DNA of 64,000 bases from contig NZ_VLNY01000009.1 of NCBI RefSeq assembly GCF_008297975.1, positions 124,001 through 188,000 of the forward strand, given 5' to 3'. The notes beneath the pieces were generated by a model. That model ran no database searches, was not told where the DNA came from, and worked only from the letters and a program-made list of their open reading frames with translations. Numbering within the stretch: position 1 is the first letter of the stretch; every line of letters starts with the position of its first letter. Made by a program: the position numbers and the translations under genes. Positions 31,829 through 49,467 of the stretch are shown in pieces. The DNA comes from Antrihabitans cavernicola. Lineage in GTDB: Bacteria > Actinomycetota > Actinomycetes > Mycobacteriales > Mycobacteriaceae.

Positions 31829-32668
31829 CTAGTTGTCGAGCCAATTCTCGAACGGGCCCGCGACGGCGTGCAACTCGAGATCAGCCGACGACCAGCGCTC
31901 GATTTCGGAGTCGGCGTCAGCGCCCACCACCACGACGCTCTGCAGATCGTCCATTCCGGACGGATCGATGTTTGCGAGCGTTCCGGGCTCGGCGATCAGA
32001 TGCGTCACCCATTCGGCGGCAAGCACCTCTTCCGGATCCGCGTCGTCGGACTGCGAATCGATGACCATGGTGGCACCGACCGTCCCTGCGAGAATCAACT
32101 CGAGAAGCAGTGCCGGCGACGTCGGCGACCCCAGGTAGTAGGTCCGGGAGTCGTATTCGACGGACAGCTGCGAGCGCGCCCGTTCGACCACGGTTGCCAA
32201 CTGCTCGTACGTGACCAGCGAGCCGGTTCCACTCACGAACGCGGTGTCGTCGCCCTTGGTCGGACTCACGCGGTCCGCGTAGGTGATCGGTCGCGGCGAC
32301 TGCTGAGCGATCTCGTCTTCGACGCTCGCGTCGTCCACGATCAGCCACGGCAGATCAGAAGCCTTCGAGCGATCCGACGATGTCACTCCGAGCGCCGCCG
32401 CGGGGCCTGCTCCAGCGCCGCCCACCAGGATGGCGGCGCCGGTCTTGACGACCGCCCACCGAGCGACGGCACCCTCGATCGTGCGGTCGAAGTCGACCAC
32501 CACCCCGGTACCCGGGCCGCAACCGCGATCGATCAGAACGCGTGCGAGCCGCGACGATCGCTGATCCAGATCTCGATAGGGCATCTCGTCGTCACCGAAC
32601 GCGACTGCAGGCGCCTCCGGATCGTCCTCGACCGCGGCAACCAACAGCTGTGCAAGGTTGGTGCCCGA
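31829..32668 (-). other. A*: truncated, degenerate adenylation domain at the NRPS2 C-terminus
   Basis: The last roughly 280 residues align with the N-terminal half of A domains (A1 to A5 motifs) and then stop. Conserved framework: [71 protein letters not shown]. Catalytic features are gone: the ATP-binding TSGSTGxPKG is reduced to FVSGTG, the SFD.S stretch with the amino-binding Asp is SPTSPAL, and A7-A10 with the essential Lys is absent. The segment is acidic (EDDPEAP, DDADPEEV, SEIERW). It cannot activate an amino acid; docking is the likely remaining role (inference). Confidence 0.85.
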
Positions 32669-35600
32669 GGACGGCGCGGTCGGCGCCACCGTTCGAGCCG
32701 CTCCCGCTGCGAGCATCTGCTCTCGCTCGTCGGCATCGAAGATGTCGATATCGCCGACCTTGATGTCGGGATCGGCCACCACCGCGCCGAGGATGCGGAC
32801 GAGCCGCCTGCCGAACGCTGCAACGGTCGACTCGTCGAAAAGGTCGAGCGCGTAGGTGAACACGGCGTCCAGCTGCGCGGTGGAACCATCCGCGTTGTGC
32901 ATGCTCTCGACGTTGAGTTGCAGATCGAACTTCGCGGACATGGCACCGGCATCGAGTGCGCTGACCGTCAGCCCCGGCAGCTCCAGCTGCGCCGCTTCGA
33001 GGTTCTGGAACGCGATCACGACCTGAACCAGCGGATGGTGCGACTTCGATCGCGTCGCGCCGAGCTCTTCCACGATCCGTTCGAACGGCACGTCGGCGTT
33101 CGCGAACGCCGACAGGTCGGTTTCGCGCGTCTGGTCGAGCAGCTCACCGAAGGTGGCCGCCGGGTCGATGGTCGAGCGCAATGCCAGCGTGTTGACGAAC
33201 ATCCCGACCAGGTCGTCGAGGACGCGCTCGCCGCGTCCCGCGATCGGCGTGCCGATGGCGATGTCGGTCCGACCGGACAGTCGCGCCAACAACACCGCCA
33301 GTCCGGCCTGGATCACCATGAACAGAGATGCGTTGTGCGCGTGCGCGATCCGAATGAGTTCGCCGTGTACCTCGTCCGGAATCGAGAAGGCGACGTTGGC
33401 ACCGCGTAGCGACGGTTCCGCCGGTCGCGGTCGATCGCTCGGGAGCTCCAGCAGACCTGGCAGCCCGGACAGCGTCTTCTTCCAATAGCGGAGCTGCTCG
33501 GCGGCGATCGAGTCGTCGTCGGTGTCCAGGCCGATCACGTCACGCTGCCAGAGCGTGAAGTCGGCGTACTGGATCTCCAGCGGGGCCCACCCCGGCGCAG
33601 CCCCTGCCGTCCGTGCCGCGTACGCGGCAACCATGTCGCGTGCCAGGGGCGCCATGGACGCACCGTCGGCAGCGATGTGATGGACGACCAGAGCGAATAT
33701 GTAGTCGTCGGTGGCGACCCGGAACAGCTTCGCGCGCAACGGCACCCGCTCGGTCACATCGAAGCCGGTCGTGACCAGCTCGATGATCATCGGCAGCGCA
33801 TCCGGGGCATCGACCACATCCAGCTCCAGGTCGGACACGACGTCGGCCTGCGGCAGTACTTCTTGATACGGCACGCCCTCATGCGCCGGATAGCGAGTAC
33901 GCAGGCTCTCGTGTCGCTCGATCACATCCGACACCGCGTGCTGCAATGCATCGACGTCCAGCGAGCCCTTCAGCTCGATGGCCAACGGAATGTTGTATGC
34001 CGCGGATTCCAGATCGAGCTGATTGAGCACCCACATCCGTTGCTGCGCAATGGACAACGGCACTCGTTCCGGGCGATCCATCCGGGTCGGTCCACGTCGA
34101 GCAGAGCCCGAACCGCGCACCACCCGGGCGGCAAGGCCGTTGACCGTCGACGCCTCGAACAGATCGCGAACGCCGAGGTTGGCGTCGAGAGCCTCGTTGA
34201 CCCGAGCCACCACCCGAGTCGCGGCCAGCGAGTTGCCGCCGAGGGCAAAGAAATCGTCGTCCGAGCCGACCCGATCGACACCGAGAAGAGTCTCGTAGAC
34301 CTCCGCTACCGTCTGCTCGATCGGCGTCTTGGGCTCCTGGAACACCTTGTCGCTGACGAACTCCGGCGAGGGCAACGCATTACGGTCGAGTTTGCCGTTC
34401 GGTGTGAGCGGCAACGCCGGTAACACCACCAGGACGTCGGGAACCATGTAGCCGGTGAGGAATCCGCCGACGAAGTCACGCAACTCGGTCCGATCGACGT
34501 CCGCGATACCGAGACCGGACTCGGGCACCACGTACCCGATCAGACGCTGACCCGAATAATCGTCTGACACCACCGACGCAACGGCCTGCGCGACACCGTC
34601 GAATCGCAGCAGCGCCGACTCCACCTCCCCCAACTCGATACGGAAGCCGCGCAACTGCACCTGCTGATCGCTGCGACCCGCGTACTCGAGTTGCCCGTCG
34701 ACGTTCCACTTCGCGACGTCACCGGTGCGATACATCCGAGTCCCGCTGGGGCCGAATGGATTCGCCACGAAACGGCCCGCACTCAAATCCGGACGACCGA
34801 TGTAGCCACGCGAGAGCTGCGCACCGGTCACGTACATCTCACCGGGCACACCCACCGGCACCGGACGCAGGCGCTCGTCGAGCACATACACACCGAGGCC
34901 GGGCAGCCCGACACCGATCACGCTCGCCGACGCCTGCGCAGCACTGATTCGGTCGAGTTCCAGGAACGACACGTGCACGGTGGTCTCGGTGATGCCGTAC
35001 ATGTTCACCAATCGCGGCGATTCCGGATGCCGCTCGTACCAGCGGGTGAGCTGACGCAGATCCAACGCCTCACCACCGAACACCACGAACCGCAGCGACA
35101 GATCGTCACGACCCGCTGTGCTACGACCGCGCGCCCGATCGGCTTCGGCGAGCTGATAGAACGCCGACGGCGTCTGACTCAGCACCGTCACCTTTTCCCG
35201 CGCAAGCAACTCCACCACTTCGTCGGGTGCGCGCGAAGTCAGGTAGTCGACGACCACCACGGTGCCGCCCGTCGCGAGCGCCGCCCAGATCTCCCACACC
35301 GAGAAGTCGAAGGCAAAGGAGTGAAACATCGTCCACACATCGTCTTCGGTGAAGCCGAACGACGGCTGCGTGTTCGTGATCAGCTGCACCACGTTGCGAT
35401 GCTCCACCGCAACACCCTTCGGGCGTCCCGTCGAGCCCGAGGTGTAGATGACGTACGCCGTGTGCTCTGGCCGCAACGGAGCGAGCCGATCCGCGTCGAC
35501 GATCCGACTCTCGGCCTGAACTGCGCTATCGACATGGACCTCGTCGTCGACATCGACATCAATCGTCGCAATCGTGTGCTGCGGCAAACGATCACGTTCA

Positions 35601-48492: not shown

Positions 48493-48597
48493 CGAGTTGA
48501 TTCACCTTTCGTGACCACACAGATCTGGGCGCAAACCGGCGACTGTAAACCTCTTAAAGGCTACATATCGGGGTTCGCGTGGGTGTTCGCTTGGTCC

Positions 48598-49467
48598 TCA
48601 CTCCAGCGCGAGCAGCCCGTCGGCCATATCCGTCCACACGGTTCGACCCTCCGACCAGCGGTCCACAACCGCCTGATCTGCGGTTCCGTCGGTGAGCACA
48701 ACCACTTCCAGGTCCTCCAGACCATCGGGATCGGCCGCGGCCAACGCGCCGTGTGGCAGGAAGGCGTGGGTCACCCATTCGTCGGCCAGCAGATCCGAGA
48801 GCCCGGCGCCGTCGTCTCCGATGACCGAAACCGCACCCGTCGTCGACGCGAGCACGAACTCGATCAGAGCACCGGGGCCGGCCGGTGGGCCGACCAGCAG
48901 GGTCCGCGATTCGTAGGTGACCGCGAACTTCTCCCGTGCCCAGTTTGCGTAGGTCGCGAGATCGCTGTGGCTGATGACGGTCCCCGCAGCGTCCGAGCCG
49001 TCCACCACACAGGCTGGGTGTTCGGCGAGCAGCGGCCGCAAGCGGTCGGCGTACGACACGGGGTGCGCAGGCGCAGCGGACACCGCGTCCACCACGACGG
49101 CCTCGTCGAGAACCGTCCATTCGACGGTGTCCGGCAACCCCGATTGCAGCGCAGCGACGGTGACACCGACCCGTGCACCGGACGCGGTCGACACCGTGGC
49201 GAGCGCGTCCTTCGACCGGGTGGGGTCGATCTGCAGGAACGCCGCGCCCGTCTTGGCAATCGCCCACAGCGCGGTGACGGAGTCGATGGAGCGCGGCATC
49301 GCGACCGCCACCACGTCTTCCGGACCGAAGCCACGGTCGATCAGTACGCGCGCCAGCCGTGACGAGTCCTCGTCGAGTTCCTGATACGAGATCTCCCGAC
49401 CGTCGAAGGACAGCGCGGGCGCCTCCGGATCCTCTTCCACGACGTCCGCGAGAATGCGCGGCAGGGT
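48598..49467 (-). other. A*: truncated, degenerate adenylation domain at the NRPS3 C-terminus
   Basis: The last roughly 290 residues are an A-domain N-terminal half, homologous to the A* of NRPS2. Framework kept: [75 protein letters not shown]. The ATP loop is replaced by VDGSDAAGT, the substrate Asp region by [12 protein letters not shown], and everything after the A5 region is missing. Net acidic character ([24 protein letters not shown]). It shares with the NRPS2 A* the EDPEAPA and EWVTH signatures, so the two form a distinct family rather than independent accidents. Confidence 0.85.

Follow-up and report, generated by a model that had tools for sequence, protein, structure and literature searches.

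The window analyzed here, a stretch of 64,000 nucleotides from Antrihabitans cavernicola (contig NZ_VLNY01000009.1, positions 124,001 to 188,000), encodes three nonribosomal peptide synthetases (NRPSs), hereafter NRPS1, NRPS2 and NRPS3 (Table 1). NRPS3 and NRPS2 both terminate in a condensation (C) domain followed by the N-terminal half of an adenylation (A) domain that has lost its catalytic motifs, hereafter A*. Their presumed downstream partners, NRPS2 and NRPS1 respectively, begin with an intact A domain joined to a thiolation (T) domain, with no C domain ahead. By motif, an intact upstream C and an intact downstream A thus lie on separate proteins, a division written here as C//A. Since the C domain keeps HH...DG and the partner A domain keeps its P-loop, a full C-A-T module would be formed only if both proteins meet.

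NRPS1 is convergent to NRPS2 in the window, and the link from NRPS2 to NRPS1 is drawn from the relatives G001 and G003, where the counterpart genes are neighbours in colinear order (genomes, contigs and loci are designated G, C and L with a number). Another contig of the source genome, C10, carries an NRPS open reading frame (ORF) of 8,754 amino acids (aa) at 38598-64859; together with NRPS3 it probably represents one NRPS of ~15,000 aa broken by the assembly, and the G003 counterpart of NRPS3 is a single ORF of 14,997 aa. Domains were annotated with profiles built from those of NRPS1-NRPS3 themselves. Epimerization (E) labels denote the first of two tandem C-type domains; TIGR01720 scored above its cut-off in the two E-labelled domains tested, and the remaining E labels were given by analogy. 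The start codon of NRPS2 is our choice, the listed ORF beginning 9 bp earlier. Two tandem-GNAT acetyltransferase ORFs lie directly behind NRPS2 (29092-31844, minus strand); the first of them, given a TTG start in the ORF list, shares 16 bp with the end of NRPS2.

Table 1. Synthetases, split-module elements and short C//A elements (TE, thioesterase). Positions refer to the window unless a genome or contig is named.
Feature	Location	Strand	Description
NRPS1	20028..29084	+	A-T-C-A-T-C-A-T-TE; TE confirmed by Pfam
NRPS2	31829..48460	-	A-T-E-C-A-T-E-C-A-T-C-A-T-C-A*
NRPS3	48598..63999	-	...T-E-C-A*; runs on to contig end
A* of NRPS3	48601..49566	-	Dead half-adenylation domain, C-terminal, 322 aa; class I donor
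C before A* in NRPS3	49567..50835	-	Motif HHIVLDG intact
N-terminal tail of NRPS2	48365..48451	-	Polybasic, MSTSDAGEGRARGGRERPAARGARRRRSG; class I acceptor
First A of NRPS2	46871..48364	-	Intact (P-loop, A5, A7); no C ahead
A* of NRPS2	31832..32752	-	Dead half-adenylation domain, C-terminal, 307 aa; class II donor
C before A* in NRPS2	32753..34057	-	Motif HHIAADG intact
N-terminal tail of NRPS1	20088..20150	+	Polybasic, PSPKDSAGPQRRPKRSRTRGA; class II acceptor
First A of NRPS1	20151..21605	+	Intact; no C ahead
Short C//A element	G002:C21 606845-607594		
Short C//A element	G012:C1 443405-444090		
Short C//A element	source genome C13:35635-35865		
Short C//A element	source genome C20:14287-14550		

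The truncated adenylation domain and its distribution

Measured from the end of the C match, A* extends for 322 aa in NRPS3 and 307 aa in NRPS2, and covers positions 3-316 and 4-330, respectively, of the 522-position A profile. It therefore ends just ahead of A5, which is itself absent. The NRPS3 copy can be aligned to gramicidin synthetase 1 (chain 1amu_A) over residues 38-317 of the latter. PF00501 matches the two copies with 81 and 48.7 bits (cut-off 29.9), over positions 3-129 and 4-82 of its 384, and by sequence homology A* is thus an NRPS adenylation domain. An initial annotation of this DNA had described both ends as C plus about 280-290 residues running from A1 to A5; the C plus N-terminal half layout stands, while the element is longer than supposed and stops before A5. 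It had also listed signatures common to both copies, of which EWVTH is found in each (48766-48780 in NRPS3, 32000-32014 in NRPS2) and EDPEAPA only in NRPS3 (49414-49434), the NRPS2 equivalent being DDPEAPA (32606-32626). Profile annotation and motifs uphold its claim of an intact A, with no C, at the start of NRPS2 and of NRPS1, and the comparison with relatives and the intact A domains of the partners support its claim that the cut in each of two modules falls between C and A.

Could these ends be artefacts? NRPS ORFs are cut at contig ends in the source genome, an A domain is split over two frames at C37:75806-76833, probably by a frameshift in the assembly or the gene, and a published truncated A domain at an ORF end was ascribed by its authors to a likely frameshift (PMC8692599; statements on this and the other PMC papers concern the parts of each that were covered). 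For NRPS3 and NRPS2, a sequencing frameshift or assembly break at 48598 or 31829, raised in the initial annotation, is nonetheless almost certainly not the cause. No positive-scoring A-profile match occurs in any frame in the 137 bp past the NRPS3 stop or in the 2,744 bp separating NRPS1 from the NRPS2 stop, and the C-A* end is kept in many genomes. The lack of an A remainder and the same architecture in relatives rule this explanation out.

C-A* ends occur in 4/4 genomes of the genus, seven in total. A profile of 16 A* C-halves, run against 301 genomes of the family at a strict cut-off (E 1e-42), matched 54 of them, in 5 of 31 genera; this cut-off misses divergent A*, as the tail-first test described below shows. 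A second collection, the named set, came from scanning 84,980 species for a single peptide pattern, [LI][AE][DAQ][ED]WVTH[LAV], and charts the WVTH-type pattern rather than every A*. It comprises 84 stretches, 78 relatives and 77 loci, with named loci in Nocardia, Rhodococcus, Prescottella, Antrihabitans, Aldersonia and Williamsia. Within the 77 loci 72 ORFs end in C-A*. The next NRPS ORF within 1.5 kb starts with A in all 59 cases that have one (two of these junctions are fragments, with A* of 56 and 212 aa), and the other 13 have no next NRPS ORF in the locus. The profile-found set, taken from the window, the genus and the family genomes and overlapping the named set in some genomes, holds 36 distinct A* ends; an A-starting subunit comes next in 32/32 with a next NRPS ORF, and four have none in reach. 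Across a phylum sample A* matched 3/296 genomes at E 1e-38, all within the family, and the tail profile introduced below matched the same three. Searches of plasmids with A* as query returned either nothing or matches of less than 60% identity over no more than 78% of the query; the single plasmid match that could be judged consists of ordinary NRPS or AMP-binding genes.

A* might instead have a binding partner other than the next subunit, such as an MbtH-like protein or a tailoring enzyme. In favour of this, MbtH-like proteins bind A domains, and the two tandem-GNAT ORFs lie directly behind NRPS2. Such a reading makes no prediction that the next NRPS gene starts with an A domain and a basic tail, and it is highly improbable.

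Motif counts pool the named loci and the window (n = 59 junctions). A3, A5, A7 and A10 are each absent from all 59 A*, which in catalytic terms are not adenylation domains; for the window copies, the initial annotation had noted the loss of the ATP loop and of A7 to A10. The P-loop is found in none of the A* and in 59/59 partner A domains, and A5 in none against 57/59, while the A4 pattern F[DE]xS persists in two A*. The C domain before A* keeps HH...DG in 57/58.

A* has a uniform length, with a median of 302 aa after C and 51/59 copies between 296 and 327. In an alignment of 35 profile-found A*, the signatures VEDDPEAPA, RSSRLAR, YESRT, DEWVTH and LEDL are common across genera, with WVTH intact in 30. 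The dN/dS of A* is 0.10-0.36 over 15 pairs, and that of the preceding C domain 0.05-0.24. A sixteenth pair, L110 with the first of the L098 entries, was left out: that entry is a fragment which aligns at 37% in A* (dN/dS 1.01) and has a stop codon within the partner region. By these ratios A* is under purifying selection, constrained but more loosely than C. All 24 A* included in a tree of 80 N-halves fall into one group (SH-aLRT 100), which adjoins the partner-type A domains (support 86).

The last position, together with the lost catalytic motifs and a dN/dS above that of C, is what would be expected if A* were a functionless, decaying remnant of a partial A duplication that arose when a longer gene was split. 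The low dN/dS, the uniform length and the non-catalytic signatures common across genera disfavour a remnant, which is very unlikely. Recurrence, uniform length, low dN/dS and an A-starting subunit that always comes next where an NRPS gene is near instead support the view that the C-A* arrangement is maintained by selection and is no artefact. The initial annotation had thought that it looked selected, had suggested asking whether other NRPSs ending in C-A* have an A-starting genomic partner and placing A* in a tree with full A domains, and had named absence from related genomes as a refutation; the A-starting partner and the recurrence in relatives are both borne out by the genomes of the genus, the family and the named set. 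The spread through Nocardia and Rhodococcus and the position of A* beside partner-type A go beyond it, as do the acidity of A*, the polybasic partner peptide and the short docking-like pair at other C//A cuts, all treated below.

Opposite charges of A* and the following subunit

A* is markedly acidic. Per 100 aa it carries a net charge of -8.1, while the N-halves of internal and partner A domains carry -4.4 and -2.7, respectively (n = 57, 122 and 57), the 57 of 59 junctions used being those with A* of at least 255 aa and a partner match starting at or before profile position 30. At fourteen columns roughly half or more of the A* are acidic, which partner and internal A domains seldom are. In the column of the ADEWVTH Asp, an acidic residue stands in 92% of A* but in 0% of partner A domains, 59% of which have a basic one there.

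The partner proteins carry additional residues at their start: the A-profile match begins at position 15-28 in 56/59 partners, and at position 2-5 in 119/122 internal A domains. The partner A is preceded by an arginine-rich peptide that is conserved, for example MTRPARVRPTRTRRPRVTTLPQLM in Nocardia and RGGRERPAARGARRRRSGVLLLPQLL in NRPS2. The 20 residues preceding an LPQL-like anchor have a net charge of +6 to +9 in 56/56 junctions (44 distinct sequences), one of the 57 junctions having no such anchor and being left out. An anchor-based control matched just 12/122 internal A domains, and a best-window comparison was preferred; this gave a mean of +7.75 for partner heads (3 to 10, n = 57) and +1.1 for internal A regions (-1 to 4, n = 122). 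The tails of class I (NRPS3 to NRPS2) and class II (NRPS2 to NRPS1) differ in sequence, a difference that may set subunit order.

A 39-residue tail profile matched 121/301 family genomes, comprising all 54 with a strict A* match and 67 of the other 247 (Fisher p 5e-26, shared ancestry ignored). The partner can also be found independently of A*. In a tail-first test, the upstream region of 20 tail matches, 19 from genomes without a strict A* match, was inspected: C-A* was directly upstream in 16, past one A-starting acceptor in three and absent in one (L230, where the upstream ORF has a TE-sized tail). On the 15 contigs of this test outside the pattern-found set, the corresponding figures were 11, three and one. 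A search by the tail alone thus recovers the upstream C-A* in most cases.

These data also bear on whether A* is a passive cap, placed over the A-facing side of a C domain that has no A of its own and keeping it soluble. Docking would then use other surfaces, and the arginine tail would serve otherwise, in self-contact or in binding nucleic acid or a membrane. Retention of the A N-terminal half is compatible with a cap, as is the occurrence of tails without an adjacent A*. A cap alone would explain neither the acidic replacement at 14 columns nor the genome-level coupling with basic tails, and this alternative seems unlikely.

A putative docking pair and possible branching

A* and the arginine tail are probably a lineage-specific docking pair for modules split at C//A, as judged from sequence. 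The upstream protein ends in C-A*, in which the N-terminal half of an adenylation domain would have lost catalysis, gained strong acidity and then been retained as an adaptor at the terminus. At the start of its downstream partner, the conserved arginine-rich peptide of ~20 residues runs straight into an intact A-T. In the proposed mechanism this basic peptide, possibly together with the surface of the partner A domain, would bind the acidic A*, and this tether would let the downstream A-T offer its aminoacyl-T to the upstream C, with the result that one C-A-T module is rebuilt in trans. Physical binding is proposed here, as are its electrostatic contact, the contact surface, the geometry and a role of A* in the C-A platform; the initial annotation had suggested that A* may preserve this platform and recruit the A-T unit in trans. 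That a module divided between C and A can work in trans is shown by engineered zippers in the C-A linker (PMC8362031, PMC10443035).

Several observations weigh against this reading. Conservation of WVTH in the named loci is by construction, these having been found by that pattern; a tree on the A1-A2 columns alone keeps the A* group with a support of only 44; and the dN/dS of A* is about twice that of the neighbouring C in most pairs. The A* profile is weakly separable, one of seven left-out A* ranking third, under two full A domains. The control of C-starting ORFs for tail charge is too small (6 ORFs, mean +4.5, range 1 to 12), and the association counts take no account of shared ancestry. 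Moreover, polybasic tails occur on A-starting subunits without a neighbouring A* at several loci. These include contigs C34 and C37 (profile matches) and C1 (by eye) of the source genome, first subunits of Nocardia clusters with no A* adjacent, second or third subunits behind a TE-ending gene (G173, G202), and L230. Since A-starting subunits that stand behind a TE gene or on their own also bear the tail, it is not exclusive to A* partners. Its function is broader than docking to A*, or else a single donor works with more than one acceptor.

The second option would make A* a hub, in which one C-A* donor docks several polybasic-tailed acceptors with release domains of their own and the line branches into several peptides. 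This is a tentative proposal and rather doubtful. Tailed subunits end in TE in 9/10 cases (NRPS1, two in G202, three in G173, one in L221, and C34 and C37), and C1:654121-669903 of the source genome is an A-starting five-module NRPS with a polybasic tail, a reductase (NAD_binding_4) end and no TE. One C-A* donor stands with two TE-ending, A-starting polybasic acceptors at G202:C1:802047-839729 and with three at G173:C1:4655983-4727747. In L221-L223 the donor is followed by a TE-ending acceptor (TE confirmed in L221) and then by a second tailed A-starting subunit. These loci are candidate hubs, as is the donor NRPS2 with NRPS1 and the unlinked subunits of C34, C37 and C1. A conserved Nocardia NRPS cluster, “cluster #4”, has two TE domains, and its authors left undecided between one 11-mer line and two lines (PMC4035055). 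Its layout recalls a single A* donor with two TE-ending acceptors behind it, and it may be the same locus, but a half-A domain or tail goes unmentioned in the parts of the paper covered. The two-TE puzzle of this cluster would fit a reading with one donor and several acceptors.

Relation to other docking elements

A second, shorter element is found at other C//A cuts. In G002, G012 and the source genome, NRPSs end with C plus about 80-95 residues, and NRPSs start with 85-95 homologous residues ahead of A. The element stood on both sides of the cut in 12/12 loci examined (L236-L247), and Pfam gave no match for the three short elements tested. Its profile had matches at 1e-8 in 79/151 family genomes, a figure possibly inflated by ordinary A domains, to which this profile gives weak scores of 20-27 bits. 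Among the matches listed, at least 34 close pairs (less than 700 bp apart, on different ORFs) occur in at least 32 genomes. In G134, G012 and G002, a short pair and A* lie at successive cuts of one line.

Matches to the short profile also occur elsewhere. In G061, G077, G008, G073 and others, ORFs of 11,265-11,456 aa contain two internal matches ~6.8 kb apart, and several genera are represented among these giant ORFs. Small stand-alone ORFs that are A N-terminal fragments or relatives of the short element lie at C23:39772-40386 of the source genome, just upstream of an NRPS, at G001:C12:289511-289987 and at G002:C20:262656-263237, and there are more of this kind, of 118-259 aa. A different cut, a single T//A junction, was seen at L136:8494-18511, where one ORF stops 10 aa past T and the next begins with A.

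How does the C-A*/tail junction compare with known docking? COM domains have been described at E/C junctions and PAX at junctions of peptidyl carrier protein (PCP) and C, with the beta-hairpin as a third NRPS docking class (PMC9113145). All are terminal elements that pair consecutive NRPS subunits, as is proposed here. Unlike the short COM and PAX elements at E/C or PCP/C, the present junctions lie at C//A in 59/59 cases; the donor is a dead half-A domain of ~300 aa (median 302), homologous to A, and the presumed acceptor an arginine-rich peptide. Split-module docking in polyketide synthases (PKSs) of the trans-acyltransferase (trans-AT) type, including DHD domains, likewise involves intramodular cuts with terminal docking elements, but in a PKS, with other domains and other elements (PMC9113145). 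A further likeness is to type S NRPSs, in which synthetic zippers are placed in the C-A linker: an NRPS divided at C//A works in trans with a bridging pair, and XtpS split at C-A gave ~30% of wild type, restored on return of native linker residues (PMC8362031, PMC10443035). Those pairs are engineered coiled coils, whereas the arrangement described here is natural and derived from an A domain. Searches of open-licence PMC papers at the level of listings, abstracts and passages, with subscription papers and preprints outside their scope, brought up no account of a truncated A domain in a docking role, which does not prove that none exists. The C-A*/tail junction is probably a variant of NRPS subunit docking.

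The NRPS docking elements described join subunits at module borders (PMC9113145), and here the cuts appear to fall within modules, at C//A, a boundary already exploited in engineering with exchange units and synthetic zippers. If the docking reading is true, the A-derived donor and the 20-residue acceptor tail would be a ready-made set of parts, possibly orthogonal, in the form of class I, class II and the short symmetric element. It would also aid genome miners in ordering the subunits of Nocardia and Rhodococcus clusters, and a claim on how clusters with several TE genes work would become testable.

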